Source of the DNA: Limnomonas spitsbergensis
Lineage: Eukaryota; Chlorophyta; Chlorophyceae; Chlamydomonadales
Reading direction: 5' to 3'
DNA length: 64,000 nucleotides
Assembly (NCBI GenBank): GCA_037349105.1
Contig: JAYJMM010000099.1
Span: forward strand, 2,108,001 to 2,172,000
Below the pieces are notes generated by a model. The model made no database searches. It was not told the DNA's origin and was given only the letters and a program-made list of their open reading frames with translations. Shown one piece after another: positions 10,990-53,948 of the stretch; the stretch's first letter is position 1, and every line of letters starts with the position of its first letter. Both the position numbers and the translations under genes were made by a program.

Positions 10990-13900
10990 TTATGAGGCAG
11001 GGGCGCTGTAGCGGTCAGTGTAGTTCAGTAGCAGGTTGTAGAGGATCGTGGCCTCACGGGGCGGAGAGACGGTGCCATTCAGGATGTCGGCAGCGGTGAC
11101 CTGCGAACAAGGATGAGGTTTTGGATTCAAGGTAAATGGTTAAGGGACCTGCGAGCAAGAAAGGGAAGTTGAAGAAAAAGAGGCAGTCAGGTTCACGGGT
11201 AGGGGACGAATGATGTCGTGAGGTATGAGCTAGAATAGGGGGCAGCCTGTAGGTGGAAGCAAGGGCAGGGAAAGGTTTAGGGTTCAGGGTTAAGAATCTA
11301 GGTTTTAGGGTTGAAAACAGAGGGCTAGAATGGGCTAGAATAGGGGGCGACCTGGCGTCAGAAGCAAGGGCAGGGGTAAGAGGCATGGGCTACGGCGTAG
11401 GCTTGGACGTTAAATGGGAATTTGGGGGAGCCGGTGCTATTCAAAATGTTGTCATCGGTGATCTGCTGATAGCAGAGCATGGCAGTCGACGAGGAGAGGC
11501 CGTCAGGGATCGTGGACAAAATAGGTAGTGAGGTGCGGTGGAGTGAGGGTGATCAAGTGAGGGAGGGGTGACCTTTTAGGAGTAGCAAGGGCAGCATGGC
11601 AGTGGGCAAGAGCAGGACTTTGTGTATGGGAAATAATAGGGGGCATGGGCAACGGCAACAGCCTTGACAACGCAAGCATGTGTGTGTGTGTGTGTGTGCG
11701 CATCTTTTAAGGATACACGAATGTCTAAATGGTTTTGGTTAACACATTTTGGAATACGGTACCTTGGCAGCGCAATCCTGTGTCGGATTGCGTCATATTG
11801 TGCCAGCAAGCAGCTGTTTTTGTAGTGAGTGGTGTACCACTATCAGCTACAGTTCAGCTGCACTGTGGCCCCTGGCCACGAGCCCCTGGTGCAGCCAACC
11901 TTGCTGCTTGGGCCACCGGCCGAAGGCCGGACTTGTGGGAATCAGCCCCTGGGCTGATTCCCACCAGTCCGGCCTTCAGGGCGGTGGCCGCGGGGCGGCC
12001 CAGCAAAGGGATTCCGGTACCCTTAAAAATAAACAGTTCTACCAAGGTGGCACAATCTGGCTAAGCCTATGCCGTATCAGGCCCTATTGTGCCATATTGT
12101 GTTATAAAAACACGAATCGCCAGCTCTGCAGGAACCCAATTCACCAGTGCAAAATAAACAAAATAAATAAACAATCACCTCCTGTTGTCCTTTCCTCCTG
12201 TGGGAATGGGAACAAGGAGGCTGCTTAGCTCAGTGCGCACCACCATACCACCTTAAACAGGCTGCTGGTAAGCCACCATGGGGCCCAATGGGGCTAGACC
12301 CGACCCACCCTAAGGCCAGGTCTCGAAGGCGCATAATTCAGGGTTCATACTTTAACCCTTAACTAAACCTGGACCGCACTAAGGCCTGGTGTCAAAGCTT
12401 CAGGGTTTGCTGCTCCATGCCCTGATGCAGCTGAATTGTGGTTGACGTGCGATGACACAATCGCACGCAGCTTCAGGCCGGGGAACACCCCTCGCCAGAA
12501 GCGTCTGCCATATCGTTGTGCATCGCAGGTTTTCATAGCCTCACGTGTCCTCACGCAAAACCCTGAACCCTAGACCCACAGTCTGCAATTTTGTTCTGCA
12601 TGATTTTTTAAGAAATGAGGGTTTCATTGGAACGCGAAAGCACACGGGGCTCACCGTTGGTCCGTATGACGCCTCGATGTCCTCCAGGTCAGCCTCCACA
12701 GACACCCCCTTGAAAGCAACATCCACCAACACTCCCCTGAGGCAATGGAACAAATGAAACAGTGGTGCTCAAGGGATCAGGAGGTCCAGGGTCAAAATAT
12801 AGGTAAACAACTCGCCAAGCACTTCAAGGCAGCCGCCACAAAGTCCCCCTAGGAAGTGACATCTGCCAACACTCCCCTGAGGTGTGGGAACAATGGAGGT
12901 CGGGGGATCGGGAGGCCCAGGGTCTTCATATAGGTAAAACAACGAACTCCGCTAAGTCTCGGCCTCTACAGAGACGGACATCAGAGCGACACCAGATCTC
13001 TGCTCATGCTAGGGGCAAAAATACGTTTAAACACTATTTTCTCAGGGGATCAGGGGGCCTAGGGTCAAAAGATACGTAAAAACGCAAATTTTCCAGGGGA
13101 TCAGGAGGCCTAGGGTCAACGATACGTAACAACACTATTTTCCCAGGGGATCAGGATATCCAGGGTCAAAAGGTTCGTAAAAACACTATTTTCTCAGGGG
13201 ACCGGGAGGTTCAGGGCGGCAGGAAATGTGAGACTTTCTTGCTGTGGCCCTCAACCGCAGTCAGAGGGGCGGTCCAAGGTCACAAAACACGTTTACCAAG
13301 GTGTGTTTCAGCCACGGTTTATGTAAAAACCAGCTACGATTCAATTAAATTGCACATACGATTCAGGTACGATTCAGCTACAAACCGGCCTACGTGCAGG
13401 TGGGGCCAGATGTAGAAAGGCCTGATGCTTGGGCCACCAATTGCAGCCGTTCAAGCTGTCATCCTCATCCGCCCAGGAGGGCTGCCCAACGGCCAGTAAA
13501 AGGTGGTATGATATGCACTGATCATATACACCGGCCACGAGAGAGGGAAGCTGCCTTCCTCTCTTATGGAACTGCAGAGCAGACACCAGTAGTGATTTGT
13601 TGCAGGGTTGTTCACGTCTGACATGTTCCTGCGTGAGAACCGAGTCTTTGCACGTGCTCCTCTTTCTTTAACCTTTTCATTCTGTGCCTGTTTTTGTGGT
13701 CCATCAACGGCAGAAATGCAACCCCAAACCTCCAACTCACTCGCTAACAGTGTAGGTCTTGGTGCGGATGGGGTCGGCAGAAAGCACGCACTCCTCTTCC
13801 TTCAGCTTTTTAATTCTGTACCTATTTGTAAAGGTTCCAACTAATAATGCAACCCGAAACCTGAAACTCACTTGTTAATGGTAAAGGCCTTGGTGCGAAT

Positions 13901-16807
13901 TTGGCCAGCAGATTGCATGTTTGCCGTGTCAAAGCTGTTTGTCTGATCCAGCTTGTCCATGTAGCTGATCCCAATGTCCACTCCGAGCTTCATTGCCTTC
14001 TTTTTCTGCGCACAATTAAGAAAGCATAACGTTTCAGACACACTACAGATTGCCTTCCTTTTCTGTGCAAAACAAAGGGAGCTGAACGCACAGATCGCCT
14101 TCTTTTTCCACGCAACACAGGGCACACAGGACGCTTCAGACACGGATGGACAAAAACTGCAGACATGCTTTGCCCTCCCTCATAATTCCTTGTTTAGGTT
14201 CAAGGTTTTGGGTTCTAGGGTTAACAGTTCAAGGGATCTACTGCCATCTACATGAAAATGCCCTATACGGAGTGTCAACACAAGTTTTCTGTCTGAAATC
14301 CAGAGTTTCTATCTGAAATCCAGAGTTTTTGCCATTCTTGCTGCAACTGGCCCCCGGAGCCGTAGGCCTCGATATGCCGACCGATGTGCGTTTTACGACA
14401 CATGGAAGTAAGTGGGCTGCCACTGTAGCTCGGACTAGAAAAGCTCAAAAGCACGGGGGGGGGGGGGGGTAGCAACAAGGCAGCACCTGGCTGAGGAGCG
14501 CCAGCCAACCATTCTTCACTGTTCAAGAGTACCAAACAGGCACACTCACAAGAAAAGCCGAAAGATTATACCCTGGGCATCTTTAAAATGAATACCGGTA
14601 GCTGGCAGGAATGGTCACGATCCTTGTTTGGTCCACAAACACAAGCATACCTGGAATGATTGCAAGCTTTTCCAGTTTCACCGCCTACATGAGTTTTGAG
14701 GCCAAGCCAACTGAGGACCTCACTGACCTTCCTGTTTCGTTCCCAGGCCTTTGGATCATGCGACTCGTTTTCTTTGGCTCCGATCACTTGCTCCCCTGCC
14801 TGTCCAGTGCCCGAGCCTCCAGCTCCTCCCCCGTCCTTTGGTCTCGGCAGTTTGCTTTTGAAGTTCCTTTCGCTATGGTGGCTGCCTCAGCCAAGGTAGC
14901 CCAGAACAGGGCTTTACGCATGGAGCTCATGCGTGGGCCTCATGTTCGGGGCCCATGCTTGAACCTCACGCTTGGTTATGGGCAACTTTTTTCTTCGTGA
15001 CCCAGCTACACGTCAGCTACACTCCAGCCCCTGACCGGAGGCATCATTTGTGGCCAGCTATGCTGCTTTGGCCACCTGTCGTAGGCTGGTCCAGTTTCGG
15101 TCCCAATCGGGCCATTGGCGACCGCGGGGCGGCCTGCCAAAGGTGGATTTGTAGCCGATAATAAAGCAATGGTCATGGGGCTCAAAGCCAGCTGTCCGAG
15201 GTCCAGCAGCACCAGTGCCGCATCCAAGGTAGGCCGGGGGACCCAGCCGGGACTACAGCCACAGGTTACCCAAGAACCAAGACCAAGACCACGGCAGGAT
15301 GGCCATGCAGAATGGCCATGCAGGATGCCCGTGCAGGGTGCCCAGCGCTCTGGGCCCAATCCCCTTTCCACTCGAGCATGCCTTGCCCACCCACCGCTTT
15401 AAATGCGTCAATGTCGTCATCGTTGGCCAGGCAGACCAGCGTGTCCTGTGATGTCCAACCAATAACGGCACCCACTGAGAAGGCATCCACCTTGATGGGC
15501 AAAGGCGCAGACCTGAACAGAGGGCAAACAATCAAAATGTGTTAGGCTCGGGTGAGACATGGATGAAGTACAGATGAGACACAGCGGGCAAAGTGTCAAA
15601 AGTTAGTCTCAATTTAGCACTTAGATCAGGGACGGAGGGCAGCACTTAGATATATCAAGTCAAATAATATCTCCTCACTCTTAATGGTTCAAGCTACGTC
15701 AATGTGTCGAGACACAATGCTCCCCATGCTCCCTATAGCTCGGTAGCCTACCTAGTGCTACGCCCAAATGTGTGGCTTTTTTTTATCCACGCCTCAGGGT
15801 GCATTTTTTTTTTTATAACCCTAGCTTACCAGCCACTAGGTCTGTGAGGCGCTCTGGCGATGACCAGGCCGTAGCCGTTTGTGATAGAGACCCCGAAGCC
15901 AATCTGGGGGAGAGGGAGGGATAAAAAAAGGCAGTTACAGCCATCAGAGAACAATTACGTTCATACCGTAATCAGGGTTCATACCTTAATTAGGGCTCAG
16001 GGAGCACACACATGCGTTTCAATGCATGGGGCTGTGCAATGAAGGGTGCGCCCAGTGTACTCAGTGACGAGGAGGCGATGGCGTGCTTGGCTGCTGACTG
16101 CTGAGCCAAATGCCGCCATTCAGGCAGGTGCGCTGGGGGCAGATGAGGGAATTAACGTGCTCAGGGGTCAGATGCAATTTGCTGAAAGGCACGACGGTGT
16201 GGCTGTGCGAGAGCTTTGGAGGCATGTAGCCGATGCAACTGTCAAGCCCATGCGCGGCAGCCATGCAGTTTGGGCCTGGGGCAACTCGTTAGCCTTCCAT
16301 GTACCCTGACAATCAGCAGTGGCCAAGTCTGGGTTCTACATGAGATCTATTGGCATTGTGCTGGCAGCAGAATGAGGCATCGTTTGAGTTGATGAAGCCT
16401 TTAGGAAGCCTAGCTGACCATGCGAGTCACCTTGTCAGCCTTCATGAAGAGAAGCGCTCTGCTGTGCACGATGTGCTCGAGGGGCAACTGCGACTTTCCA
16501 TCGAATGCTTTCAGCAGCTCGCAGCTGTTCAGGATGGACACGAGAAGGGGGTTCTTGTGGATGTCGAGCATGGAGCGCCTGTTGTCGAGCTCTGCCAGGC
16601 CGAGCAAGAAAAATCAAGCCAAGGTGCCAATGAAAGGTATTTGGAAGCTATGAGTGAGGAGGTAGGAGCATCTTCGGCGTCGGGTTTCCGTTCATGACGT
16701 TCAGCAACCTCACCTGCGAGAATGGCAGACTCATGGTGTCCTTCAAATACAGAATGGTCTTCCTGCTTTGCATCCTCGGTATGTGCGGCAGCCTCGACGC
16801 TGGTCAT
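10990..16807 (-). CDS. SYLF-domain (Ysc84/SH3YL1-type) protein
   Basis: Spliced model, exons in order: 16714-16807 (start ATG at 16807), 16431-16591, 15830-15903, 15395-15512, one exon ending at 14728 (start uncertain, perhaps 14835), 13872-14005, 12655-12736 and 10990-11100 (stop TAA). Except around the uncertain exon, GT-AG sites and phases agree, and codons split across junctions restore W in PSGW-SAPLP and K in TINK-GVLVD. Product about 290 aa. The SYLF signature is clear: ALLFMKADK, IGFGVS-NGYGLVIAR, GWSAPLPIKV, MKLGVDIGIS, FTINKGVLVDVAFKG, then VTAADILNGTVSPP before the C-terminus. SYLF proteins bind phosphoinositides and link membranes to actin. The Gly-rich stretch before WERNRK is an extra between the halves. 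A TGTAA polyadenylation-like word lies at 10728-10732. Several introns hold copies of adjacent exon boundaries. Confidence 0.82.
11911..11989. repeat. Near-perfect intronic hairpin
   Basis: Arms at 11922-11948 and 11951-11977 pair at 26 of 27 positions around a 2-nt loop. GGCCACCG/GCGGTGGCC words extend the stem. It lies in the last intron of the SYLF gene within a GC-rich dispersed repeat related to sequence near 15040-15140 and 13390-13500. Confidence 0.85.
13010..13220. repeat. Tandem repeat of about 52 bp in SYLF intron
   Basis: Four degenerate units with CAGGGGATCAGGAGG-C, AGGGTCAA and ACACTATTTTC words run through the intron between 12737 and 13871. Related single copies lie at 12766 and 12900. 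Confidence 0.7.
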
Positions 16808-17588
16808 ATTGTGCACGCTACGAGTCGCTGACTGCCGACGATCACGAAACTAGTGTTACGCGTTCAAATCAAATAATTTAATGATGTCGGTTAGCTATAG
16901 TTATTGTGAACGACCTTGGATCGGGAGAAATGGGAGAGGCAAGAAGAGTGAAGCCCCTTTCCACGGATCTGCTCCCCACCGGCTTCCACCCTTTTGACAT
17001 GACATTCTCGTTCGCTAGGAAGCCCAAATCAGGCCCAACTTGACTGGGCTGGCCTGATCAGAACTAGATATAACACTTTGCATGCAGTCCAAACAAATGA
17101 CGCACATCAAGTCCAGGATACCTCATGCCATTATACCAGAGGGGCATGGGGCACCTCACTCCTTACTCCTCTGGATGTGTACGGCGTTTGTTCGTCCGAG
17201 ACTGCTACATTCGCGAATGCATTCATCGTCGACAATCCTAACCATTCGAGGCTCCAATGCGTTGGATTGTAGAATTGTTTTCCCATGAAATCAGAGCATA
17301 CGCTTGCGCAGTAACCATGCTCGCCTGGCTACATCTTGCTTCGATCCGTCTTCAATTATGACTGGAACTCCTAGCTCATATAGTTAATAATTCAACTTCA
17401 AGTTTAACTGGGTAGATGGACGCCTGAGGTGAGTGCTCCATACCGCCTCGAAGGTCACTGCATGCGGCGTAAGCCTCTTCTTGTTTCGATGACAGCAATG
17501 CATCATCATACGTCTCATGCTTTTCTATGCAGGCTCTAACTAGCAGTGGCACCCTGGATAGCACCTCCAGTTGTCCCGCTTCGACGGG
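16808..17588. promoter_or_regulatory. Divergent intergenic region between SYLF and IQ genes
   Basis: The SYLF start codon (minus, 16807) and the start of the IQ-protein model (plus, 17589) face away from each other across 781 bp, so both promoters should lie here. No core element is convincing. A TGCAG/G acceptor-like site at 17528-17532 leaves open an upstream noncoding exon for the plus-strand gene. Confidence 0.35.
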
Positions 17589-18140
17589 ATGCCTCCACCC
17601 CTTTTTGACATCAACAACCCACCGGCCCCCCGAGTCGTCGAGGTCTCCCCCAGGCGCAACCTCATGCATGGAGCTTTGATGCGGCGTCTGTCCGTCTCAA
17701 GCACGGAGGCGGACAGCCGCCTAGGCCTTTCCAAAAGCATGGAACTGGACCTGAAATGGATCTTGGGGGACCTGCCCGCCACCCCGGAGAACCTGGCCCA
17801 GGCGCTGTCGGTCGCCGAGGCGTACGAGACCATGCGGCTGTGGATGGCAGTGTGCTGGGATTCTGTCATCCTCTACCTCAGCATGCATGCGCTCCAGCAG
17901 TGGCACAACAGCAGCGGTGGCAGCCTGATGCTAGAGACAGCAGCAGATGCCATGCACGATGCTGATCTGCAGCCGTTGCAGTGCCTCATGACCCCTCCAA
18001 GCGGCAGTAGAATGCCCCTGGAGACACTTGTGGAGGGTGTGGAGCTTGACATGAGGCAGCCCGTGCAGGACGCCAGTGCCCCCCCTTCAGCAGCTTCCTC
18101 CACACTGGAACCAGCACGAGGAAAAGCAGGGGCAGCAGCA

Positions 18141-18179
<39 letters not shown>

Positions 18180-21100
18180 CAGATTGAATCGAGCAATAAT
18201 AAGGAGGCAGCACAAGGACAAGCAGAGGCAGGAGTAGGAGATCAGCCTGAGGCAGTAGCAGTGGCAGCAGCAGAGCTTGAAGATGAGGCAGAATCAGTTG
18301 CTGAAGAGATGGCACGCCTGGCTGAGGGGGAGGCAGCAGCAGCACAAACTGAGTCAGATGCAGCAGAAAAAGCTGCAGCAGCAGCTGAAAGATCCGAGGC
18401 AGAAGCAGAAACAGCATCTGCACCGACTGAGGTAGCAGCAGCAGCGCTAGCATTGGCGACAGAGGCCTCGGAATCGGATGGAGGAGAGGGTGATGCAGAG
18501 GCTGAGGCTGAAGCAGAGGCAGAAATAGACACAGCGGAGGCTGAGCCAGAGGCCGCAGAAACAGCTGAGGCAAAGGAAGAGGCAGCGGACGCAGCAGAGG
18601 CGGAGGCGGAAACAGCAGAGGCGGATGTGGAGGCAGAAACAGCGGAGGCGGAGGTGGAGGCAGTGGACGCAGCAGAGGCTGAGGCAGAAATAGACACAGC
18701 AGAGGCTGAGGAAGAGGAGGCAGAGGCAGCAGAGGCGGAGGCGGAAACAGCGGAGGCGGAGGCGGAGGCTGAGGCAGAAACTGACACAGCTGAGGCGGAG
18801 GTGGAGGCAGCGGATGCAGTAGAGGCTCAGGTGGAGGCAGACACAGCTGAGCCTGAGGCTGAGGCAGTGGATGCAGCAGAGGCGGAGGCTGAGGCAGACA
18901 CTGCGAAGGCTGAGGCGGAGGCCTCGGATGCAGCAGAGTCTGAGACTGCAGGGTTAGTATCAGCGGCCCGGGCTGGTGCAGACGTAGGGACTGAGGCTGA
19001 GGCTGAGGCTGCAGTGCTAGCATCTGCAGCACGATCTGGTACAGAAGCAGGTGGGGCGGAGGTAGAGACTGCATTGGTGGCTGAAGACCAGTCATCAGGA
19101 GCTGAAGCAGCAGCACATGCAGGGGCCGAGGATGAGGCAGCAGCAGCAGAGCATGCAGGCGAGGCAACAGCAGCAGCAGCGATAGAGCATGCAGTAGCAA
19201 CAGCGACAGAGCACGAAGCTGAGGCAGGTGCAGCAGCAGAGGCTGAGAATGGGGGTGAGGCAGCTGCAGCAACAAGAGCAGTAGCAGAGCATGCAGGTGA
19301 GGAAACAGCAGCAGCAGCAGCAGAGCTTGAGCATGATCCTCAGCTTGATGATGGAGGGGCTGCCACACTCTTGCCTGAGGTCAAGGCCACACTGGCGGAA
19401 TATGAGCAGGAGGAGGGAGAGGACCAAGAGCCGGAGGGAGGAAAGGAGCAGGGGAACGAGGAGGATGAGCAGGAGCAGGAGCATGGGGAGGAGGAGGAGG
19501 AGGATGAGCAGGAGCAGGAGCAGGAGGGGGAGGGGGAGTCTGAAGCCAGGACTACAGCTGTACTGGAGCTGGAGTCTGAGCTGGAGCTGGAGCTGGAACT
19601 TGAGGCTGAGCCTGCGCACCTTTCACTCTCAGTAGAAGCATTGGATTCGCAGCTCAGGCCGGACGCTGAGCATGAGCAGGTTTTGGCATCTGAGGCACAG
19701 CATGACCATGAGCCTCAACCCGAGCCTGTATTCGCCACTGAGGTGGAGGCTGAGACAGTGTCTGAGAGGGTGGCTGAGGCTGAGACGGGGGCAGAGGCAG
19801 AGGCAGAGGCAGAGGCTAAAGCGGGGGCTGAGAAGGAAACCAGGGCGGAGGAGGAGGAGGAGCAGGAGGCGGAAGAGGATGTAAAGGAGGAGGAGGAGAA
19901 GGAGGAGAGGGCGTCTGGACCTGTTTTGGCTGTCAAAGGAGAGGAAACTGCGCCTTGCCAATCAGAGGATGTTGGACATTCCCAGGCTGCCGCGCCGACT
20001 GTAGGTCTGGCAGTTTCTGGGGCAGAGGCGGCTGGCCCGGACAATGTCGAAGAAGCAGCGGCGACCAAGGTGCAGGCCGGCTGGCGTGGGCACCAGGCGC
20101 GTAAAGAGGTAGCTGCCATGAAGGTGGCGGCGGCCGAAGCCGAGATGGCGGCTGTGCTGGTCTGGGGCGAGAGTGGCGATGGCGAAACCTCTATGGAGGC
20201 GGCTGCGGCGACCAAGGTGCAAGCTGGCTGGCGTGGGCACCAGGCGCGTAAAGAGGTAGCTGCCATGAAGCTGGCGGCGGCTGAGGCGGCAGCAGTGCTA
20301 GCTGACGTGTGGGCTGACAACGCCCAAGCTGATGTTCTCCTCCCTCACGAGATGTTTGCGCTGCCCGGAATGCTCGAGGCACCCGGCCCTGACCAACTTC
20401 AACTGAGGACGTCTGGAAGTGACCACCCGCGACCGAGGGCCTCTGAAGCTGACCAACCGGAACCGAGGATGTCTGGACCTTACCAGCCGCCACCAACTTC
20501 TCCTGAGCAGGTGACTGCTAGCTGAGATTCCCGTTGCCATCCTGTCTTGTGGCTGCCAGTTGGGTGACTGACTTATTCATATAATGCGGCCGAAGGCATC
20601 TGGACCTGGCCAGCTGCCACCAAGCACTTCTGAGCAGTTAGCTACATGCCACCAAGCACTTCTGAGCAGTTAGCTACATGCCACCAAGCACTTCTGAGCA
20701 GTTAGCTACATGCCACCAAGCACTTCTGAGCAGTTAGCTACATGCCACCAAGCACTTCTGAGCAGTTAGCTACATGCCACCAAGCACTTCTGAGCAGTTA
20801 GCTACATGCCACCAAGCACTTCTGAGCAGTTAGCTACATGCCACCAAGCACTTCTGAGCAGTTAGCTACATGCCACCAAGCACTTCTGAGCAGTTAGCTA
20901 CATGCCACCAAGCACTTCTGAGCAGTTAGCTACATGCCACCAAGCACTTCTGAGCAGTTAGCTACATGCCACCAAGCACTTCTGAGCAGTTAGCTACATG
21001 CCACCAAGCACTTCTGAGCAGTTAGCTACATGCCGATATTATCAATGTAGTCTTACTGTGGTTTGTTGTCTCCGGGCCCCCCCGATACTCCAGGGGCAGA

Positions 21101-24100
21101 AACTTGGGTAAAGCTTGGGTGCGTGGGTGTGCGCCATGCTTGGGGTGTACCCAGTGCCCGGTCTGCCGCACGGGCGCAGGATGGGTGCATTTTTGAACAC
21201 ACTTCAAAAACTAGGCAGGCCTGGCAGAAAACTGAATTGCGCGCAGCGCAGAACATTTGGGGTTGCACAAGCCACCCCCTCGCGGCCCTGCCCAAGAGAT
21301 AGACAGGATGACTGCTCATCCGCCAGCTACTGATGCTGAGTGCTGATGCGCAAAAGGCCTACAATTGCAGTAAAATGTATTGAAATTAACGAACATTGGT
21401 AAGAAGTACCGTAAACGGTACTGTACATTAGCTTACGCTACCGTCAATCAAACTCAAGGGTCCAATCAAACTCAGGGGTCCATTCAAACTCAGGGGCTGC
21501 TGGTGGTCCCAACCTCTACCGTACCCGCACTGGCATATTTTAGGAGGGATGCGCGATAGGCCGCGGAAACTATACAGTAAGTAGTATCGGGGTGCGCGAT
21601 GACGTCGCTGGGCGGAATGGGTTGACATCAGTCGGAATCGGTCGAAATTGGGCAGTGCGTGAACTATTGGCAATGAAATGTTGCCCTGCAGGACCTAATA
21701 AACAATGAAAAAGGGGTGTGGAGGTTAATATATAGATACATTTTCTTGGGGTTGCGGAAAGGGCATATTTAAACTTCAGTACCGGTAATTTACTTGTCAT
21801 GGAATAAGTTCACGACTGGTGTCGATGATCAGAGAATGCATTAAGATGCAGTTTTGAGTTTGTGTGCATTTTTTTTTTCCAGGTGGCTGAAGCAGCGATG
21901 GCAGCAGCAGGCCCACACGAGGATGCTCCTATCACTCGACGCGTCTCCAAGGCTGCGCTGGCGTCGGCTGCCAAGCTCAAGGCACAGCGGCAAGCCTCGC
22001 AAGACATCTTGGATGAAGGCGTTGCAAGGCGCCTCGCTGCGGATCAGGCGGTGAGGGACGCTGCAGTGGCGGCTGCCGCCGCAGCTGCCGCGGCGGCGGC
22101 GGCCGCGGTGGCGGCCAAGGCCGCTGCCAAGCAGCAGGTGCGTGAGCGGCTGGCGGGGGAGGCTGCCGCACGGGCTGCCTCCGTGCGTGACCATGAGATG
22201 ATGGAGGCCGCACGCGTGTTCGGGGAAAGGCTCTGGGCCGAGCAGGTGGCCGCGGCGGCGGCAGCTACTGCGGTCAAAGAGCGGGCGGAGATGGAGGCGG
22301 TGGATGCGGCGCAGCAGCTCGAGGATGGGAGGTTACTGGCGGCGGCCGCCGTGGCTGCTGCGAAGCTCGCGGCCGCGAATCTGCAGGCCAGGGAGCTTGC
22401 GGTTGCCGCAGCAGCGGCGGCGACCGCGGCGCGGGCCGCTGGCTTGTCGCACCTGGCCGCACGGCTGTCCGAAACAGAAGAGTGCCAGCTAATGGATCAG
22501 CAGGCGCGTCTGCGAGCGTGCAGCGCTGACCTGGCGCAGGTGAGGGGGGTTATATAACGACGCTTCCCTGGATGCGTGTGGGTGCAAGGAACATTGTAGC
22601 CTACATATCACATTTAATTTAAGGGTTCTAAAGCTAGCTCTCAGCCTACCGCACGGCCTGGGGGTCCTGATGCAGCTGGCCTTATCACTTGGGAGATGGG
22701 ACGTAGGTGGATCAAAAGTGGCCGGGTCGGGTCCCCGTAGGCCCAGGGGCTACAAGGACGTGTAGGTGGCGTGGATGCACTTTCAATTCAAATTTGTGAG
22801 CCCAGTTTATTGACATTAATTGACCTAGGGCCTGGGGGGGGTTATATCACGGGGTTGCGGTATATCGAGTCTTTAATTTTAGTTTCAATCCAAAATGTTC
22901 GATCTTTACTGTCCCCGGCCCTTGAATCCCGAACCTTTATTTCCGTAGTGAGATATTGCTTATCGCGGCTTGAATTTCCCTTCCTTCATGCATAAATTTA
23001 TTATTATGACGCTGCCCTCAAAGGGCACAAGTTGTCGATGCTGATCGGGAATCGAGAGTTTGGGTCGATCTTGTACCCCAGGCGCAGCACATTAAGGAAA
23101 AAGAAACCGCCACCACTTTTAAATGAATAGGCTCGATTTTTGGTTTAGGAACAGATTTTGTTGTTTTTGTTTGAGGTTACGGGGAGCTTTAGGGTCCTGC
23201 CTGCTCACTAATATAACGTGTCTGAGGTGTACGCGATAGGCCGAGCAAGTTAAGATACTATGTGACATCAGGGCAGAAACAAGGTTGAGCGAAACCCGGT
23301 TGGAATCAGACGATACGTGTAGTGGTGTACCATCAGACAAGGAACACAATCCTGAGGAATTGAATGTTGAAGAAATCCATGCGGGATACCGTATTCATAA
23401 ACCTTTTTATTTTCTCAGGAGCTTTTTAGTGCCATTCCTTTGCGGTATACCGGTAATGTGTGTTTTAGTGTTGAATTCTTAATCGTCGACCCCCCATCCC
23501 ATACAGGTTAGTAGGGACCTCGACTGCCTGGATTCCGACCTCCACCAGCTCAGCGTCAGCCCCGTCCCCGCCACACCCTCCTCGACCGCCGCCGCCGCCG
23601 CTGACCGCGCGGCCACACCCATCACTTTCACAAACCCCACCATCTCCTTCGCCGCCGCGGCCGCCGGTGCTGCCGCGGCCGTGGAGGCCGCGGTGTCGGG
23701 CCGCAAGGAAGCGGCGTACTCCCTCCTCCTCATGGCTGACGAGCAACGGGAGCAGCTGGACAGCGTGCTGACTGAGCTGAGGGCCCTGGAGAAGCAGATG
23801 AAAGCGACTGAGGAGGCGAGGGCCAAGCGGCTGTACGGCAGCCAGAGGGAACAGGTGAGGAGTGAGGACCAGGATATGTCACAGCTGTACTCTTTTTGAA
23901 GTGGGAACCTGAACCCTGAAACCTGAAACCTGAAACCTGAAACCTGAAACCAGAAACCTGAAACCTGAAACCTGAAACCTGAAACCTGAAACCTGAACCC
24001 CTCTCTCTCGCCGAGGGACAATTCCCTGAGGTATAGGGGCTGCTGGCGGTCCCAACCTCTATCCCCCATCCCTGCCCTCTCTCGCGTCCAGGGATAGTTC

Positions 24101-34640: not shown

Positions 34641-34649
34641 AATGCTATA

Positions 34650-35330: not shown

Positions 35331-35339
35331 GCTTTCAGT

Positions 35340-36450
35340 TGCAAGACGTTCTTGGTCAAAGGGCTTGCCCGACCCGCTCAACCGCCGTTGCCCCCCGCTG
35401 CCAGACGGTGTGAGACAAGCAGATGATCATCTGATGGGCAACAAGGCCATGCCCGACCCACTCAACCGCCGCCGGCCGCTGCCCCCGACTACCAGACGGT
35501 GTGAGACAAGCAACTTATCATCTGCTTGGCAGCAAGGGCCTCCCCGACCCGCTCAACCGCCGTTGTCCCCAACTTCTAGACAATGCGACACAAGTAGATG
35601 ATCATCTGTTGCCTGGGCAGCAAGGGCATGCCCAACCTGCTCAACTGCCACTGCCCTAGCGGCCAGGCGGTGTGAGACAAGCATATGATCATTTGCTGGG
35701 CAGCAACGGGCACGTCCAACACGCTTAACCGCCATTGCTCTCATCTGCCAGACGGTGTTAGACAGTTTGTTGATCATCTGTTGGGTAGCCCGGGACTGCC
35801 CGACCCGCTAAACCGCCGCTAGCCTAGCTGCCATACGGTCTTTGTCAGGTTTTTGATCATATGTTGGGAAACAAGGGCATGCCCAACCCGCTCAACCACC
35901 CATGCCCTTGTTGTTAGTCGGCACGAGACTAGCAGCTAATCATATGTTGGGCCGCAAGCCAGGTCATGCCCCGCCCGCTTAACCACCGCTACCCCCTACG
36001 GCTAGGCGGGTTGAGACAAGCAGTTGGTCATCTGCTAGGCAGCAAGGGCATGCTCGACCCACTCAACAGCCACTACCCCCTGCTGCCATACGGTGTTAGT
36101 CAAGTTGTTGATCATATGCTAGGTGGCCAGGTAGGCCAGGATTTGCCCATCCTTCGCAACCACCGCTGCCCTCAGTGGCTGGCTGGTGTGAGACATACAT
36201 CTGATTGATTGCTGGACAACAAGGGCATGGTTATCAGCCCGCTCAACTGCCGTTGCCCAATCTGTTAGGCGGTGTGAGACAATCATTTGATCATATGCCG
36301 GGCAGCAAAAGCATGTCCGACCCACTCAACCGCCATTGCCCCCACTTGCCAGACGGTTTGAGACAAGCATTTGATCATATGATGGGCAGCAAGGGCATGT
36401 CTTGCCTGCTCATGTGCCTGTGCCCCAGCTGCCAGACGGTGTGAGATAAG
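35340..36450. repeat. Satellite of about 84 bp, about 12-13 units
   Basis: Each unit carries CCCGACCCGCTCAACCGCC, CTGCCAGACGGTGTGAGACA and a palindromic TGATCATCTG followed by GGGCAGCAAGGGCATG. TGATCAT-TG sites recur about every 84-88 bp from 35424 to 36380. The units are well diverged, which suggests an old array. It lies directly 5' of the retrotransposon remnant. Confidence 0.85.
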
Positions 36451-36880
36451 CAGTTGGCAGGGAAAATGACTCTATGACAAGTGGTGGTAGCAGTGTGCAA
36501 ACAATATGCATGGGACATGCATGGTGAGGGGGGGGGGGGGGGGGGTGAAATGGTAATCAAGGTGCGATGCCTCATTAAGATGGGTCCTTAACCGCTGACA
36601 CGCCTCAATTGTGTTATTAGGCTTTACCCTCAAGACGGGGCTCTCACAGATCAAGTAAATGATTTGACGGGGGTATTCATGAACATGCATGACCCCTCCA
36701 CTGCAAACCTTACGAATATTGAAATGTCAAACTGTTTAGATGCCTCACGCATACTGTAGTGGTCAGGTCCCTTAGGACATGACAACACACTATGCTTTTC
36801 ATTCAATCTAGCTCGTTCTTAATCAACGTTCTAAGACGGTATTCCTGGCGTTATTATTAGGAGTTATTCATGAAGTCTCC

Positions 36881-41918: not shown

Positions 41919-41934
41919 AGACCTGACCACTACA

Positions 41935-43895: not shown

Positions 43896-44179
43896 AGACG
43901 CTAGACACCATGCTGTAAATATTTTGCTCCAACATTTGAGCCAGCATTGTAAATCCCTGTACTTGCAATTTTTTTACCCGGAGCACTTTGCAGTTTATTC
44001 GTACCCCCCGGTGTTGATTAGCACTTTGGTGCACGCATTTCTCTTGCAGTGTTCAATTACCCAAAAGTAAAAATAAACAAGCATGTGGCTAAACAACGCG
44101 CCATACCGAACGCGAGCCTTCTGGCTTTAATCTCCACTATTCCGTATTTGCCGGACACAGATTGCACAGCAGGGTAAGC

Positions 44180-47100: not shown

Positions 47101-50100
47101 GCTCCGTACTCGCCGCGGGCCGGCAGGTCCCAGGCGGTGCTGGCTGCGGCAGCTTCTTGCCGGCTCCCAGCCAGCATCCGCAGCGGCTGCTGTTGTGGCT
47201 GCTTTATACCAGCCAGGCTTCTCATGTGCGGGAGGCAGCCTTCAAGACCAGCCGCCCATGCATGCAACAACTCAGCCACATCCACGCCCCCAGCCGCCGT
47301 CCCACCCGCTCCGAACTCCGATGCAGGCAACGGCGGCGCGGCGGTGGCGTGTGCCTGGTCGGAGCCCCGGGCAGCGTTCCGCAGCATCTCTCCGTCCACC
47401 GCATTAGGATGCACCGCGCAAGAGACAACTGAGGATAGCATCTCGCTCAGCGGCCCATACCGCCTCAGCTGCTGCTCCAACTCGCCCAGCATGGCCATCA
47501 CGCGAGCCGGCTGCGGGGCTGCCGGCCAGCTGCCAGCCGCAGCGGCCGCCAGCGCCTCCTCGCTGTCGTCGTCGCCGGAGAGAGACAGAGCGGGGAGCAG
47601 CGGCTGCGGGCCGGCGGCGGCGTCTGGGGGGCGCAGCGCTGACAGCGGGGCGTTGGTTTCGGGGTTTAGGGAGGAGGCTGGTGCGCAGTCATCGAGGGGT
47701 GCGGTGCTATCTAGAAGCTGGCGAGAAGCTGGGTCCTGCAGGATGGTGGTCATTCAGAGAAAGAGCAGGAGAGATATCAAAAAGAGTGGGTGAATAATGA
47801 TTGAATCAACAAGAGGGGGCGAGTGAAAATAAATAGAGTGTGATAACGAAATAAATAAACAAGGGGCCGTGATAAATAATTAAATGAACAAGAAGGTGGA
47901 AGAGACACACAACATAAATGTACCCTAGGGTGTGAAGGTGTTGAGGTGTCAACTTGAGCGGGCTTGTGTTCAGGAGACCGTTTGGCTATGAAAAGGAAAA
48001 GGGAATCATTTCACGACCTCTCCCTCCTTGACTGCCGTCCATATAACCATGGAGCAGAACTTTAGCCGAGCCGCCCGCGTCTTCCTCACGTTTGGCATGC
48101 CCTCAGCACCGGTTGGGCATGCCTTGGAGAGGAAGGAGGAGCAAGGCGACCTCCCTAAACCCTTAACTCAAAACCCACCAGTGAGCTGTGCAGGCCCTGG
48201 CGCTCGGCCTTGAGCGCATAGTACGAGTCCCGGAACTTCGTCGCAGCTGCTTCCTCCTGCCTCTGTGCATGCATGAGCAGAAAAGCGGGACGCTGTGGAA
48301 AAGACACACGGAAGATTGAAATATGTCTTGCAACGAAAGCAAAAGGAGGATTCCCGGAACTTCGTCGCAGCTGCTTCCTCCTGCCCCTGCATTCATCAGC
48401 GGAAACGCGGGCCCTTGTGAAAATAGGTGAAAGTATGGGTCCGCTTCTGGGTTGAAATCCAGCCAGGGCTTTTAGCGTCCAGGCGATGCAGGCATAGCAT
48501 TGTGAAATGGCCCTCAAAAATACTGCTTGTCCGGTATGTAGGCTCATATTGGTCATATATGGGTCCCTCTTAAGGTTTAGGGTTTAGGGCTACGAAGTCC
48601 TAAAACCTGAACTTAATGAAGAGTCATTTACAGGTCCCTCTTAGGGTTAAGGGTTAAGGGTGTACGACTAAGAAGTCCTAAACCCTGAACTCTACGTAGG
48701 CTCATATACAGGTCCCTGTTGGTCAGGTTCAATACTTTCCGTTTATACTTTTGGTCAAATGCTTAAAATGACAAAAATACTTACAATTCTGCGTTTCCAT
48801 AGGTACCGACGTTTTGGCGTGGTGTGCGTGTGTGCTGCTCTGAGCCTGTCAGGTTGTTTCAGCTACACTTCAGCTACCAGGGGGCGACAGCCGTGGGGGG
48901 GCTGGTGCAGCGGTTTTGGATAAACACTTGACTGCATTGCACTGATCAACAGGCAAAGCGAAGCAGAGATCCGTGGACTTTGCAGGGAACAACAGCCCAT
49001 GTCCCCCCAGAGTGCTTAGGGCTTAGGGCTTAGGACTTGAGAGTGTGCAAGGCTTACGGCAGTCTGCATTCTTTCAGGGATTAGGGTTTAGGGCATAGAA
49101 TCAGGGGACTGTGCTGGGGGTTAGGGTTTAGGGCTTAGGATGTGAGAGTATGCATGGTTTACAGCAGCCTGCATTCCTTCAGGGATGAGGGTTAAGGGCA
49201 TGGAATCAGGGGATTATACTGGGCACAGTGTCAGCACATAGTCCTCTGGGGTTGAGGGTTCAGGGACCAAGGGACGTGTGGACTGCGGAGCTTGGCAGGC
49301 AATGCTTTCCCAGGGCTTAGGGTTTAGGGTTCAGGGCTTAGGATCTGGAAGTTACAAGGTACGGCAGTCTTAGTTCCTTCAAGGATAAGAGTTTGGGGCA
49401 GAGAATCAGGGGATTGTCCTGGGGTTCAGGGCTCAGGGCTTGGGATCAGAGAGTATGCAAGGTTGACAGGAGTCTGCGTTCCTTCAGGGATGAACGTAAA
49501 GGCATTAAACCAGAGGGCCATGCTGGGTAAAGCAGCTCACATCCCCTCTTATAAGGGTTTATGGGATAAAAGTCTAGGGTTTAAGTTTTATTCTCACAGC
49601 TCACCTGGGCCGCTGCCGCCAGACGAGAGACCTCGGCGAACTCCATGACCTGGACCCTAACATCCTCTGCCGCAGCCGCCTTCATGGCCTCGGCCAGCTC
49701 GTTGAATACAGCCTGGTGCTTTGGATCCTACGGGGCGGAACCAGCAGCCCAACGGGTGAGGGTTGAGACGATGATGTGCAATCATGCCGTAATTCAGAAA
49801 TGTGAGACATCGTGTAGCTGAATTACTGGCTTCAGTAGCTGAATCACTGGTTAGAGTAGCTGAGTTCCTGTTTAGAGTGGTTGAGTTCCTAGCAAGTGTA
49901 GATGAATTCCTGGTAGGAGTAGCTGAAATCTTGGAATCAGTGGCTGAATGACGTGCAGGAGAAGCTGAATCACTGATAGGGGTGGCTAAAATCCTGGAGG
50001 CATTGGCTGAATGGCGTGCAAGTGTACCTGCATCACTGGTAGGCGTAGCTGCCTTGTGCCTTGGAGTTACAGCGGCTGAAAGCAAGCTGCAGAACTCAGC

Positions 50101-53100
50101 CACCGAAAGGACCCGAATCTGCACAGCACTTACGAGAGTGCAGCCCGGCTACATTTTAGCTATGCTCTGGCTACAGTATCCATCCACCATGACCGTAACC
50201 GGCTCAGCACTGATTTGAGCATGCTTTACAGTGCTGTGCTGAGAACGGTTCTTACGGTGGCTGAATTGCGTAGCTGAGTTTATGGCACCGTAATTTCAAG
50301 GCAAATTCAGATTTTTTTACCAGTAGAAGACTCAGTAGAAGACAGTAATTACAGACACGATGTCTAAATTACGGCGCAAATGCACATCACTGATTCTTTA
50401 GCTACGTTTCAGCAACATCCAGGCCAAGAATCTCAGTCACCGCAAGGACTGCAATTTGTGCAGCACTGGATGGCAACTTAGGCTCCTGGCCCATGGCAAC
50501 GGGGTCATAGAGTAGAGCATTGTAGCAGCTAGCAAGCCGTGCCGCTTGTGGTTTACGGACCTGCCAATCGTAAGCCAGGTTGTAGCTCAAGTGTAGCTCG
50601 ATCACCCGACCATACCAAGCGACGTGCTCACCTTGGACGGCTGGGTTCTGAAGGTGTAGGAGGAGGACAGGTCCGGCTCTATTCTCTGGTAGCTTGCATA
50701 TAGAGCCAGGGAGGACAGATCCAGCAGGGTGCTCACCAGCCTGAAAAACAGACAAACACACACTCTTATGTCCCAGCCTCCCAGGTACAGATACGGCACA
50801 GGTTCAGCCGGATGTTCAGCCGCCATGTGCGAAGCCGGCCAGCACAGCTGCTTGCTGGTCAGCTGGAACAGCAGACAAACGCAAACACGCACACTCGAGT
50901 CTGGTCGAGATTGAGGGATGAAATCTTAAGGAACAGAAACGCACACACACGTGGCGAGGATGCGGGTTTCAGACATGGCGGGACCACTCGGCCCAGATAT
51001 ATGTTGCAAGGCGCGGCAAGACCGGATGAGTAGACTGCGGAATCGAGTATATTTTCTGGTAGCCGTTACCGGCGGTACAGGGCCCATCGGCACATGTCAG
51101 AAAGACAAGCAAATGCGAGCACATGTCAGAAAGACAAGCAAATGCGAGCACATGTCAGAAAGACAAGCAAATGCGAGCACATGTCAGAAAGACAAGCAAA
51201 TGCGAGCACATGTCAGAAAGACAAGCAAATGCGAGCACATGTCAGAAAGACAAGCAAATGCGAGCACATGTCAGAAAGACAAGCAAATGCGAGCACATGT
51301 CAGAAAGACAAGCAAATGCGAGCACATGTCAGAAAGACAAGCAAATGCGAGCACATGTCAGAAAGACAAGCAAATGCGAGCACATGTCAGAAAGACAAGC
51401 AAATGCGAGCACATGTCAGAAAGACAAGCAAATGCGAGTGCTTGTCTTTCAGTTGAGCTTGCATATCTGTGACGGGTTCTGGAGCATCTCCCGATACCTC
51501 CCTGGCTCCTCCCCCCTGATCGACACACTGGACTCAGGTGGCAGGTGTTCCAGTTTGGCCTGCGTCTCTGTGACGGGATCTGGAGCATCTCCCGATACCA
51601 CCCCACACCCCCACGCTTGTCTTTTAGTACCGCCTGTATCGATGCCCAGCAAGCACAAATGATTGAAATGAGGCATGAGCCCAGGGTTGAGGGTTGAGGG
51701 TTCAGGTTGAACCAACAAAACAAACTCAACTCTAAACCCTAAACAGATGTGGCATGTGCCTAGAGTTGCGGTCATTTGGTCTCCGCACTTCATTTAGCGC
51801 ACTTTGGGCTTCACTCCAGCTTTGACTCAGCTACACTTGGACTACAATTCGGCTACAATTCAGCAAAATCACAGGTTCCGGCCGTGAAGACTTTAGGCAG
51901 CAAGATAAAGGTCCTGCTTAGTCCAGCAGCCAGTCAAGTTTTGGGTCCTGTCGGCCCGGTGGTGGATGCCCTGATGCCTAGTTGCCTACCAAATGTAATG
52001 TAGATTTGCTTTGCCGACCCTCATAATTAACGTTGTTTAGGGTTAAGGGATCCATGGATTTGCTAATCATATTGATTGTCGACGCCAGTTTTCAGTCGGA
52101 AATTCAGAGTCTGGTCGATAATTTGCCCTGAGGGCAGAGCATTAAAAGCAATCGTAATTTCATACCCGAGGGGAGGCAAATCAAATCTACGGGAATGGCC
52201 TTGTGTTCAATAAAAGAAATACTTGTCGGCCTGGTGGTGGCTGCCCAGGTGCTTGTCCGCAGAAAAAAAATAGACACTCGTCGGGCCGGTGGTGGCTGCC
52301 CAGGTGCCCGCCAGAGGAAACAGTCTGGTGGGCGCTGGAGAGAAACACTTGTGTGGTGGTGGCGCCTCGATGAGTGGTGCAAATACCTTGATGGAAAATC
52401 TGGGTCGACGTGTCGAGGGTTTTCATGTACATGCACAGGTTCATAGGGTGATATACCCTGAACCCTGAATTGTATGAGTGGCATGTTGACCTGTAATCGG
52501 AAACGGAGCGCAGCTGAGAAACCCTGAACCCATCACCTGGCAGTTATTTATGAAAGCAGGAGTGGAGCGAGGCTGAGAAAGCCTTCACCTGGCACTCATA
52601 ACAGATGCTGGATGCGGAGCACAGCTGAAAAAACTTAATCCTCAAAGTGGCATTCGTACATGAATCCAGAGGGGGGATGCAAATGAGCAGTCCTTAAGCC
52701 TCAAGTTAGCCTTCAAACCTGAAACCCGAGGGTGGAGAGCAGCTGAGAGGCTGTCCAGATGCGATTTGTGCACAGGCGTCTAGTGCTGAAGGTGCAAGCC
52801 TTTCTACCCAAAGCACATCCTCTCAAAACCCTGAATTAGATAAGTAGAATAACGACCTGAAAACGGGGCGGAGCGCAGCGGAGAGGCCGTTGAGAGGCTG
52901 TTCACATCTACGTGTCGAGCGTATTGGGTTAATGCCCTTTCAAACTGAACCCTGTGCTTGGCATTCATACCTGAAGCCAGAGGTGGAGCGAAGCTGCGAG
53001 GCTGTGGAGATGTTGTTCATGGCTAGGTGTCTAGGGTTCAAGGTGCAAGTCCTTTTACCCAAAAAACTTTCTTCCAAAACCCTGAACTAGATGAGCAGAA

Positions 53101-53948
53101 TACCGACCTGAAACCGGCGACGGAGGCAGTTGAAAGGCTGTGAAGATGCTGTTCATGTCTAGGTGTGTGGGGTATAGGTGTAAAGCCCTATTACCCGAAC
53201 CCCGGACTTGGCGTTCATACCTGAAGCCGGAGGCGGAGCGCAGCTGGGAGGCTGTGGAGATACTGTTCATGTCTAGGTGTCCTCTCTCCTTCAGGCTCTT
53301 CAGCCAGTCCGACACCCTCTGCGTGTCCATGCAGCAGAAAGTTGTTTTAAGGGTGGAACAAGAAGGGGCGGGGGGTGCTGTTTTCAGGCTTATATAAGTC
53401 AGCTGGACACGCTCTGTGTGGCCATGTGCAGTATGCCGGGCCACATGGACCACCGGCCCTTGGTCGGGTTCCCACTGGCCCAAGGATGCCGGCTCGCTCG
53501 CCCCCCAATGGTGGTCTTGAGCACACTAAGATAAACACTGACAGTTTTCCCATGCATGATGCATGGGAAATCACGACTTAGGAGCACTTTGCGTGTGCTG
53601 CTCCCACCTGGTTAAATTCTTTCCCTTGGCTTGCGTCCGACACAGGATAGAAGTTTTTGAACTCCTGCGCAGACATGGAATGTTTGGCATGGCTAGGACG
53701 AGGCGGTTGACGTGGCGAAAACATGGAGTGCTCACCTTTTGAGCGACAGCTTCACCCACTACGCAGCCATAAAGATAGAACATGACATATTCGAGAGCCC
53801 GCGAGCTCGGTCGCCGAAACGTAAATCGATTGATATCGAGGCCCACTGGGTTCTTACTGCCTGGACCAACTAAACTCAACAAGCACAGATTGTGGTGCAG
53901 CTGCTGCTCTTCTACTGTGCTACCATCGTCAGCGTGTGTCGTGCTCAT
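44180..53948 (-). CDS. Augmin complex subunit 6 (HAUS6/AUG6) homologue
   Basis: Nine-exon model: 53736-53948 (ATG at 53948), 53608-53664, 53221-53318, 50632-50740, 50441-50560, 49605-49727, 48179-48262, about 46842-47735 and 44180-45229 (stop TAG). The product is about 915 aa, near the family length. Phases agree through the first seven junctions, including an Arg codon split between exons 3 and 4. The N-terminus shows the HAUS6_N pattern: LDINRFTFRRPSSRALEYVM, then EFKNFYPVSDASQGKEFNQ, VSDWLKSLKERGHL, ASQLRSASGFRLVSTLLDLS. Middle exons (LAEAMKAAAAEDVRVQVMEF, QEEAAATKFRDSYYALKAER) are coiled-coil-like. The C-terminal half is low-complexity. Augmin recruits gamma-tubulin to existing microtubules for branching nucleation. 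The exon 8 donor is ambiguous (46838 or 46842; the latter keeps phase 0). Its introns hold many boundary copies and minisatellites. Confidence 0.78.
45236..45375 (-). repeat. GGGT/GGAT microsatellite with an acceptor-side copy
   Basis: A tetranucleotide-like GGGTGGAT run lies just upstream (minus strand) of the last HAUS6 exon. At 45318-45375 a diverged copy of that exon's start reads TTGCAG/GACAATGACTTGGGGC on the minus strand, against GCATGCAG/GCAAAGGACCTTG in the true exon, and both continue to CCTCACCCACCC. Confidence 0.7.
45784..45986. repeat. 29-bp tandem repeat, about seven units
   Basis: The unit GATGGAAGGGTTAAGGGTGA-AGTCTGCAA repeats every 29 bp in the last HAUS6 intron. On the gene's strand each unit contains TTGCAGACTTCACCC, which resembles a splice acceptor. 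Confidence 0.85.
48352..48410 (-). repeat. Acceptor-side copy of HAUS6 exon 7
   Basis: On the minus strand ATGCAG/GGGCAGGAGGAAGCAG and CTGCGACGAAGTTCCGGGA repeat the start of exon 7 (CACAG/AGGCAGGAGGAAGCAG) about 130 bp upstream of the true acceptor. The copy then diverges and lacks the donor. Confidence 0.85.
48570..49560. repeat. Telomere-like and 100-130 bp repeats in HAUS6 intron
   Basis: Runs of TTAGGGTTTAGGGCTTAGG alternate with units containing GCATTCCTTCAGGGAT-AGGG and AATCAGGGGATTGT, in about four degenerate copies (49010, 49120, 49320, 49430). All lie in the intron between 48263 and 49604. Confidence 0.7.
49810..50135. repeat. 21-bp tandem repeat and donor-side copy in HAUS6 intron
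   Basis: About ten degenerate 21-bp units around GTAGCTGAATCACTGGTTAGA give a 7-residue periodic frame. At 50085-50135 a copy of the exon 5 end lies on the minus strand (GTGCTGTGCAGATTCGGGTC, then CTTTCGGTGGCTGAG), matching GTGCTGCACAAATTGCAGTC, then CTTGCGGTGACTGAG at the true donor. Confidence 0.7.
50838..50885 (-). repeat. Acceptor-side copy of HAUS6 exon 4
   Basis: Minus-strand GTTTGTCTGCTGTTCCAG/CTGACCAGCAAGCAGCTG repeats GTTTGTCTGTTTTTCAG/GCTGGTGAGCACCCTGCTG at 50757-50723. It lies upstream of the true acceptor and then diverges. Confidence 0.7.
51092..51439. repeat. 29-bp minisatellite, 12 units
   Basis: Twelve nearly perfect units of ACATGTCAGAAAGACAAGCA-AATGCGAGC. Because 29 is not a multiple of 3 and the unit lacks stops in this orientation, three plus-strand frames stay open. 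The last unit continues into GTGCTTGTCTTTC, making a 12-bp hairpin with GAAAGACAAGCA. It lies in the long HAUS6 intron. On that gene's strand each unit holds a pyrimidine run TGCTTGTCTTTCTGAC similar to the exon 4 acceptor tract. Confidence 0.9.
52000..52190. mobile_element. MITE-like repeat, copy 2, with terminal inverted repeats
   Basis: The left end GTAGATTTGCTTTGCC and the reverse complement of the right end GTAGATTTGATTTGCC form imperfect inverted repeats of about 20 bp. The interior matches the copies at 42349, 61248 and 61570. No target-site duplication is obvious. It is inserted in a HAUS6 intron. Confidence 0.65.
52480..53160 (-). repeat. Array of donor-side copies of HAUS6 exon 3
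   Basis: Downstream of the true donor at 53221/53220 lie at least four clear and several weaker copies of the exon 3 end plus donor. On the minus strand they read like GACATGAACAG-ATCTCCACAG, then CTGCGCTCC-CCTC-GGCTTCAGGTATGAA. They sit near 53105-53160, 52965-53035, 52855-52920 and 52700-52780, with weaker ones near 52620, 52560 and 52490. Decay increases with distance. Confidence 0.75.
53396..53447 (-). repeat. Acceptor-side copy of HAUS6 exon 3
   Basis: Minus-strand CACATGGCCACACAG/AGCGTGTCCAGCTGACTT parallels the true CATGGACACGCAG/AGGGTGTCGGACTGGCTG at 53331-53300. It lies about 90 bp upstream of the true acceptor. Confidence 0.75.

Follow-up and report, generated by a model that had tools for sequence, protein, structure and literature searches.

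Worn tandem copies of exon edges in the adjoining introns of the green alga Limnomonas spitsbergensis

In the genome of Limnomonas spitsbergensis, short stretches of DNA are duplicated side by side almost throughout, and about one exon-intron boundary in six has worn copies of itself in the adjoining intron. The best reading, and a probable one, is a genome-wide tandem duplication filtered by splicing, together with an additional twofold excess at boundaries. The window is a stretch of 64,000 nucleotides (contig JAYJMM010000099.1, positions 2,108,001 to 2,172,000), of which 60 kb, together with 20 ten-kb stretches, form a sample of 260 kb; 26% of this sample consists of local tandem duplications. 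Coverage in shuffled sequence is 0, which rejects chance as the source of the copies. Similar head-to-tail copies at short spacing that are lacking in shuffles are the mark of local tandem duplication or minisatellites, and at boundaries the nearest copy lies at a median spacing of 126 (47 boundaries), the usual range being about 85-240 bp.

Local alignment finds an intron copy that spans the splice site at 8 of 25 exon boundaries in the window (7 HAUS6 edges, 2 edges of a SYLF-like exon and 16 edges of other scanner-predicted exons), each with P 0.0033, the floor of 300 shuffles. A preliminary description of this DNA had proposed that the end of an exon is copied with its donor into the downstream intron, and the acceptor with the exon start into the upstream intron, and both are confirmed. 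It had counted at least twelve such boundaries; the 8 found here come from our own exon choices rather than from its list. Among the genes that it named, HAUS6 stands, with boundary copies and a HAUS6_N match, as does the identity of the IQ-motif open reading frame (ORF; PF00612), but the SYLF gene does not, its best match being Ysc84 with E 0.27; neither edge of the SYLF-like exon (16419-16591) has copies (0/2). The four joined HAUS6 exons form an open frame that matches Pfam HAUS6_N (PF14661) with 27.5 bits, barely over the 26.4 cut-off. Placing the start at the ATG at 53330 is our choice, and upstream exons are probably missing, since the match begins only at profile position 76. When the HAUS6 region is compared with itself by BLAST, 52706-53031 pairs with 52958-53281 at 77% (E 3e-64). 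In six-frame style Pfam scans of the minus strand (7001-16999 and 45001-54999), no family passed its cut-off. Six further copied boundaries come from predicted exons (Table 1).

Table 1. Exons, boundary copies and other features in the window (window coordinates)
Feature	Position	Strand	Basis or remark
HAUS6 exon, labelled exon 1; copied donor boundary at 53221	53221..53330	-	frame, HAUS6_N
Six decayed copies of HAUS6 exon 1 end in the following intron, 3 spanning the donor	52489..53146	-	P 0.0033
The same six copies, singly	53106-53146, 52930-53010, 52855-52895, 52706-52754, 52587-52627, 52489-52519	-	
HAUS6 exon 2	50632..50740	-	neither boundary with a significant copy
HAUS6 exon 3	49605..49727	-	neither boundary with a significant copy
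HAUS6 exon 4	48179..48262	-	acceptor at 48262 copied upstream; donor uncopied
Copy of HAUS6 exon 4 acceptor and exon start in the preceding intron	48349..48423	-	84% over 77 bp
HAUS6 intron duplications away from boundaries, ascribed to the background process	48552-48720, 49016-49527, 49814-50051, 51090-51438, 51444-51603	-	self-comparison
Predicted exon; acceptor copy at 12837-12893	12655..12736	-	exon scanner score 25.6
Predicted exon; acceptor copy at 14049-14088, donor copy at 13715-13780	13872..14005	-	exon scanner score 25.6; donor copy also by BLAST test, acceptor copy by local alignment
Predicted exon; single weak donor copy at 22821-22851	22048..22539	+	local alignment; missed by BLAST test
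Predicted exon	24749..24925	+	exon scanner score 36.2
Acceptor copies of exon 24749..24925	24022-24047, 24077-24123, 24198-24216, 24560-24636	+	
Donor copies of exon 24749..24925	24970-25024, 25095-25121	+	
Long ORF, IQ-motif protein	17562..20525	+	PF00612, two stretches, 44.4 bits

The pattern extends genome-wide beyond the window, as had been supposed, with copies at 52 of 334 boundaries of kinesin genes and predicted exons. The 15 kinesin loci were chosen by coordinates alone, and their splice boundaries were assigned from the DNA by homology, frame and signal. For 10 of the 15 the boundaries were fixed after the repeat list had been viewed, so that the assignment is not blind; that list used match edges for these first 10 loci, and exact edges were placed later. 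Six of the 116 kinesin exon edges could not be placed and were dropped before counting. Intron-side copies occur at 18 of the remaining 110 boundaries (acceptor 6/55, donor 12/55), and the copies are one-sided, none of the 110 having a copy on the wrong side. Among predicted exons elsewhere, a set that includes false exons, the BLAST test finds intron-side copies at 34 of 224 boundaries and wrong-side or exon-overlapping copies at 16, or at 4 of the 130 edges that are kept at score 25 when exons longer than 300 nt or without a neighbour are removed. With kinesin groups left out in turn, the scanner at this score recovers 35 of 52 exons exactly and 15 partially, and makes 17 predictions that match no annotated kinesin exon, some of which are perhaps real exons.

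Arrays at boundaries hold up to 17 copies. At kinesin locus L042 eight additional copies of the exon 4 end and its donor, with a period of 89 and 96-99% identity, come after the original; none of this type is present in the paralogue L043, which is 94% identical in exon 4, and such differences between close paralogues are those of minisatellites. Copies could be compared with a paralogue at 13 of the 18 copied kinesin boundaries, the other 5 having no mapped paralogue edge; in 12 of the 13, one of them nearly tied, they are closer to their own exon than to that of the paralogue, and most of the compared copies are of lineage-specific origin. Recurrent duplication, as the preliminary description had proposed, fits both this and the one-sidedness in kinesin genes. 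Its companion claim, of selection acting on a single copy, is weakly suggested: in nearest copies the exon part has a mean identity of 0.84 and the intron part 0.78, the exon part being higher in 32 of 52, which suggests that the exon part decays more slowly, but after weighting by length the two parts do not differ (0.816 and 0.815). The claimed decay with distance does not hold as a rule: in similarity the nearest copy surpasses the farthest in 15 of 28 arrays, falls short of it in 12 and ties with it in 1.

It could be objected that boundary copies are no commoner than copies of any intron segment. Plain coverage bears this out, with 0.24 at boundaries against 0.23-0.31 in the intron interior, so that much of the signal is the genome-wide duplication background. 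Counted per ancestral position, which allows for the several copies left by each intron event, boundaries are nevertheless duplicated about twice as often, 0.223 against 0.103 (ratio 2.16, bootstrap 1.57-3.11; 242 edges in 31 clusters, the 132 predicted-exon edges being selected by a slightly different neighbour rule). The lowest ratio on leaving out one cluster is 2.06, and donors give 2.02 and acceptors 2.32. Across five settings the excess ranges from 1.74 to 2.16, and from 1.61 to 2.00 without the three richest kinesin loci. A stricter 12-nt test gives 1.90 for kinesins (bootstrap 0.94-2.78); the ratio is 1.34 (0.67-2.13) for predicted exons at score 30 and 2.09 (0.44-6.1) for kinesin pairs with 90% identity or more.

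The model that we favour proposes that short stretches in introns and between genes are continually tandem-duplicated, the copies being made, we infer, by fill-in during the repair of breaks or nicks and later by unequal exchange. A duplication that straddles a boundary would leave the message unchanged if the outer copy stays in use, and such events would therefore survive; the extra copy would turn into intron and decay, while the intron lengthens. Duplications within exons or across a whole exon would be purged by selection, which would also set the side on which copies are found. For the excess, either a duplication rate biased towards boundaries or a longer survival of arrays anchored in the conserved exon end may be proposed.

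Purely neutral spill-over could also be argued, with the background rate holding at the boundary and the conserved copy merely staying recognisable for longer. This is possible, although we hesitate to call it likely. The flat plain coverage, the wide intervals of the stricter tests, which reach 1, and a simulation in which exons are strongly constrained and exchange is absent, yielding an excess of about 1.4-fold and a boundary frequency of 0.14, all speak for it. Yet simulated boundary frequencies span 0.03-0.14, against 0.22-0.23 observed, with an excess of about 1.4 at most; the observed excess is no weaker where pair identity is 80% or more (3.35, 2.14-5.51), and its persistence when exons are masked (1.98, 1.45-2.82) rejects easier detection through the conserved exon as its sole cause. 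The excess was not recovered in simulations that included unequal exchange and a one-way ratchet (boundary frequency at most 0.10), and four other settings erased their own arrays. A contraction-proof ratchet was likewise rejected as the cause: in one of the setting pairs it lifted the boundary frequency from 0.08 to 0.10, and in two it left the value as it was. Duplication may instead be biased towards boundaries, exon edges being more often broken, nicked or re-replicated owing to transcription, R-loops or nucleosome edges, a reading on which we remain doubtful. Duplications would then start preferentially 20-60 nt inside exons; array ends do concentrate 21-40 nt inside the exon, with 26 array starts at -40..-21 (4.6-6.2 per kb, against 1.4-2.1 per kb at +140..+399) and a fall to 5 at -20..-1, in kinesin and predicted-exon sets alike, and donors and acceptors behave alike, but the peak may partly reflect the exon length needed for detection. 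It can be suggested only tentatively that exon edges are hot spots of tandem duplication, with starts 20-60 nt inside the exon on the donor and acceptor sides, in which case introns would grow from their ends by repeated boundary copying and a standing stock of decoy sites would exist at about one boundary in six.

That copies are kept by selection as spare or helper splice sites is unlikely. Intact splice dinucleotides are slightly above the expectation from identity in nearest copies (32/45 against 28.0) and in all copies (91/128 against 85.0), but the farthest copies are at expectation (16/27 against 17.2), and the copies show no clear conservation peak, with 0.91 at the donor GT (exon flank 0.85-0.91) and 0.80 at the acceptor AG (flanks 0.75 and 0.85); these dinucleotides decay neutrally, without preferential keeping. 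The introns might also have arisen when pieces of exons were tandemly duplicated, the copies being what remains of this. Such intron gain is a known route (PMC3443670), but it is extremely improbable in this case and is rejected, as none of 41 kinesin introns shows homology between its donor and acceptor boundaries at P<0.01, and the partners of copies sit within the intron, outside exons. It is very unlikely that exons were wrongly chosen and the copies are ordinary tandem exons, even though for most genes the choice depends on frame and signal. The joined L033 kinesin exons, the one gene checked, align gap-free at their junctions to Haematococcus and other algal kinesins; no nearest copy spans a whole exon at 45 keyed boundaries (representing the 52, with kinesin boundaries merged by locus and side), and exon-exon pairs number 0 of 185 among kinesin repeats. 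Tandem exon duplication, that is, of a whole exon with both splice sites, is thus rejected.

Small within-gene duplications that take in exon-intron borders are of a known kind; the arrays described here share the inclusion of such borders, as partial copies in short local arrays at about one boundary in six. In introners, too, repeated sequences are tied to splice sites, but these elements are scattered across many genes, whereas the compared copies here best match their own adjoining exon edge. Hellsten is said to have reported intron gain by tandem genomic duplication in 2011. In that process, as PMC3443670 presents it, a duplicated AGGT creates a new intron with both ends copies; there too, a duplication overlapping coding sequence is tolerated and splicing hides the extra copy, whereas in the present case an intron that was already there grows longer, and its two ends are unrelated. 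For Drosophila, PMC2891723 gives 9 cases of intron sliding in a set of 31 near intron pairs. There, too, splice sites that are duplicated or shifted offer a way for intron ends to move; the present case differs in its standing decoy arrays, which are seen in the DNA. Fill-in of break ends by Pol alpha-primase, described in PMC8355091 for induced breaks in cells, yields small tandem duplications and could be a general source of such short head-to-tail copies. A description of the boundary-copy pattern itself was not found among the open-licence PMC papers listed in literature searches.

The pattern would offer a countable, ongoing route to intron lengthening and splice-site redundancy. Should the twofold excess hold across the genome, with its 18,277 genes, exon edges would be shown to attract or preserve duplications, and the growth and sliding of introns as well as decoy splicing would be directly testable in a single organism, for which full-length transcripts are already published, PMC11228838 giving 43,157 polished IsoSeq isoforms. 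Duplication also occurs within coding sequence, as in the IQ-motif ORF, which contains an in-frame duplication with a period of 147 nt (20055-20140 against 20202-20287, 93%).

In the window, positions 2108001-2172000 of contig 99, duplicates spanning an exon edge and its splice site were found at 8 of the 25 boundaries tested. The preliminary description had placed such copies in at least three spliced genes, among which HAUS6 stands as described. Its four joined exons carry a single open frame and match HAUS6_N, barely above the cut-off and from profile position 76 on, so that earlier exons are probably missing; as judged from its sequence, the gene is real. Six decayed copies of the end of the first of these four lie at the start of the next intron, and the acceptor of the fourth has a copy upstream. 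The IQ-motif reading frame is borne out by a profile match and itself contains an in-frame duplication, which shows that the duplication process is not confined to introns. The SYLF gene call found no support in the Pfam comparison.

Short-range direct duplications are abundant in the window, both by self-comparison and with Tandem Repeats Finder. When 60 kb from the window was surveyed along with 20 stretches of ten kb each (12 adjoining it, 8 elsewhere), 26% of bases lay under duplications within 1 kb, and none did so after first-order shuffling; coverage of single stretches ranged from 1.5% to 80%. The available portions of the L. spitsbergensis genome paper give 33% repeats, 0.10% satellites and introns averaging 788 bp (PMC11228838), with no mention of boundary copies.

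The whole genome (260,226,709 bases, 124 contigs) was searched for kinesins, and from the 139 matches listed, 15 loci with several close exons were taken from coordinates alone, giving 58 exons and 110 placed splice boundaries. The joined exons of locus L033, the one gene so checked, are gap-free at the junctions against algal homologues, and one joined kinesin has its best match in Haematococcus lacustris (69% identical). When a reach of at least 12 nt on either side and a partner in the adjoining intron are required, 18 of the 110 boundaries carry intron-side copies (acceptors 6/55, donors 12/55) and none carries a copy on the wrong side. These are uneven across loci (6/8 boundaries in L040, 4/10 in L030, none in 8 of the 15), and 12 of 41 inter-hit introns have one. 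The loci also served to train an exon scanner, which was exact for 38 of 52 exons in leave-group-out runs (35 at score 25) and was applied to 264 kb (the window, 120 kb adjoining and 80 kb elsewhere). It predicted 112 exons at score 25 or above, with intron-side copies at 34 of 224 edges and wrong-side or exon-overlapping copies at 16, 14 of them in exons of at least 290 nt.

By plain duplication coverage the boundary is not special, as its 0.24 lies within the intron range of 0.23-0.31. Because an intron event leaves at least two covered positions, and a boundary event one true boundary, first copies were counted over the sum of first copies and uncovered positions. Between -20 and +20 this frequency is 0.22-0.23. 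It has dropped to 0.12 at +100 and levels off at about 0.10 (0.06-0.14) farther on; inside exons it is 0.05 at -60 and 0.01 at -100. The boundary/intron ratio is 2.16 (bootstrap interval 1.57-3.11), or 2.57 (1.67-3.92) for kinesins only, 1.88 (1.17-3.38) for predicted exons only and 1.98 (1.45-2.82) with exons masked. The excess persists after removal of any single cluster, and ratios of 1.61-2.00 are kept over five settings without the three richest kinesin loci. Under a stricter 12-nt test it is weaker in kinesins, at 1.90 (0.94-2.78), and in predicted exons it is 2.04 (1.16-3.03) with a score cut-off of 25 and 1.34 (0.67-2.13) with one of 30. Neutral duplication with exon constraint, when simulated, gave ratios of 0.85-1.29, with boundary frequencies of 0.08-0.12 in a second simulation; a further one without exchange reached 0.14, about 1.4-fold, and unequal exchange, with a ratchet or none, gave 0.03-0.10. 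On these figures a boundary excess is likely. Array ends are concentrated 21-40 nt inside exons (26 starts), with few at 1-20 nt (5 starts), and where the period is at most 200 the exon makes up on average 0.39 of the copied unit, and more than 0.67 in 1 of 41. A twofold boundary excess with a preferred offset inside the exon is possibly new.

None of the nearest copies at 45 keyed boundaries spans a whole exon. Splice dinucleotides are intact in 32/45 nearest copies (28.0 expected from identity), 91/128 of all copies (85.0) and 16/27 farthest copies (17.2), and the identity profile has no clear peak at the splice site, which is consistent with neutral decay. By plain average the exon part is better kept than the intron part (0.84 vs 0.78; higher in 32/52), as expected if the copy alone drifts, a difference absent under length weighting (0.816 vs 0.815). 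In 12 of 13 comparisons the copy is closer to its own exon than to that of the paralogue; the exception is L032, and one L033 case is almost tied. Decay with distance, proposed earlier as a rule, does not hold: similarity falls in 15 of 28 arrays, rises in 12 and ties in one. Intron birth by duplication is rejected, since none of 41 kinesin introns has homologous ends.

The copies are likely accounted for by frequent tandem duplication together with a splicing filter. Short tandem duplications would arise at a high rate throughout the genome, possibly from DNA breaks or nicks, a step borrowed from the literature (PMC8355091), and those straddling a boundary would be made harmless by splicing, on one side only. 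In the kinesin L042, eight near-identical copies with a period of 89 follow the end of exon 4, and its paralogue L043 has no array at the corresponding place. The L043 variant is present in the two most distal units, an arrangement suggestive of recurrent copying from the exon side in L042. All nine units of L042, that of the exon itself among them, have a GC donor (GCAAGT), and L043 has GT.

Other features are collected below. Nearly all matches of the 2-kb query used for the interspersed element fall in that part of it, and the reverse-transcriptase frame is probably a piece of a retroelement.

Coordinates of features (window positions, except L042)
Feature	Position	Remarks
HAUS6 exons, minus strand	53221-53330, 50632-50740, 49605-49727, 48179-48262	copied donor 53221, copied acceptor 48262
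L042 exon 4	G000:C124:7568400-7572400	
Telomere-like CCCTAA/CCCTAAA-type runs	27392-27591, 48552-49527	within duplicated units of introns and spacers
Array, 32 bp x 13	20615-21034	100% matches; much fresher than most surrounding repeats
Array, 29 bp x 12	51090-51438	100% matches; much fresher than most surrounding repeats
585-bp tandem duplication	56134-57304	98.6% identity; end overlaps tRNA-Thr(agt)
tRNA-Thr(agt)	57255-57327	
Second tRNA-Thr(agt)	7985-8058	
C-rich array, 42 bp x 32	33305-34638	strong GC skew (-0.38 over 32001-36000)
Interspersed element	about 11800-12046	at least 55 matches, including self and a nearby tandem copy
Reverse-transcriptase ORF	37838-39085	RVT_1, 81 bits; neighbouring frames 36812-39493
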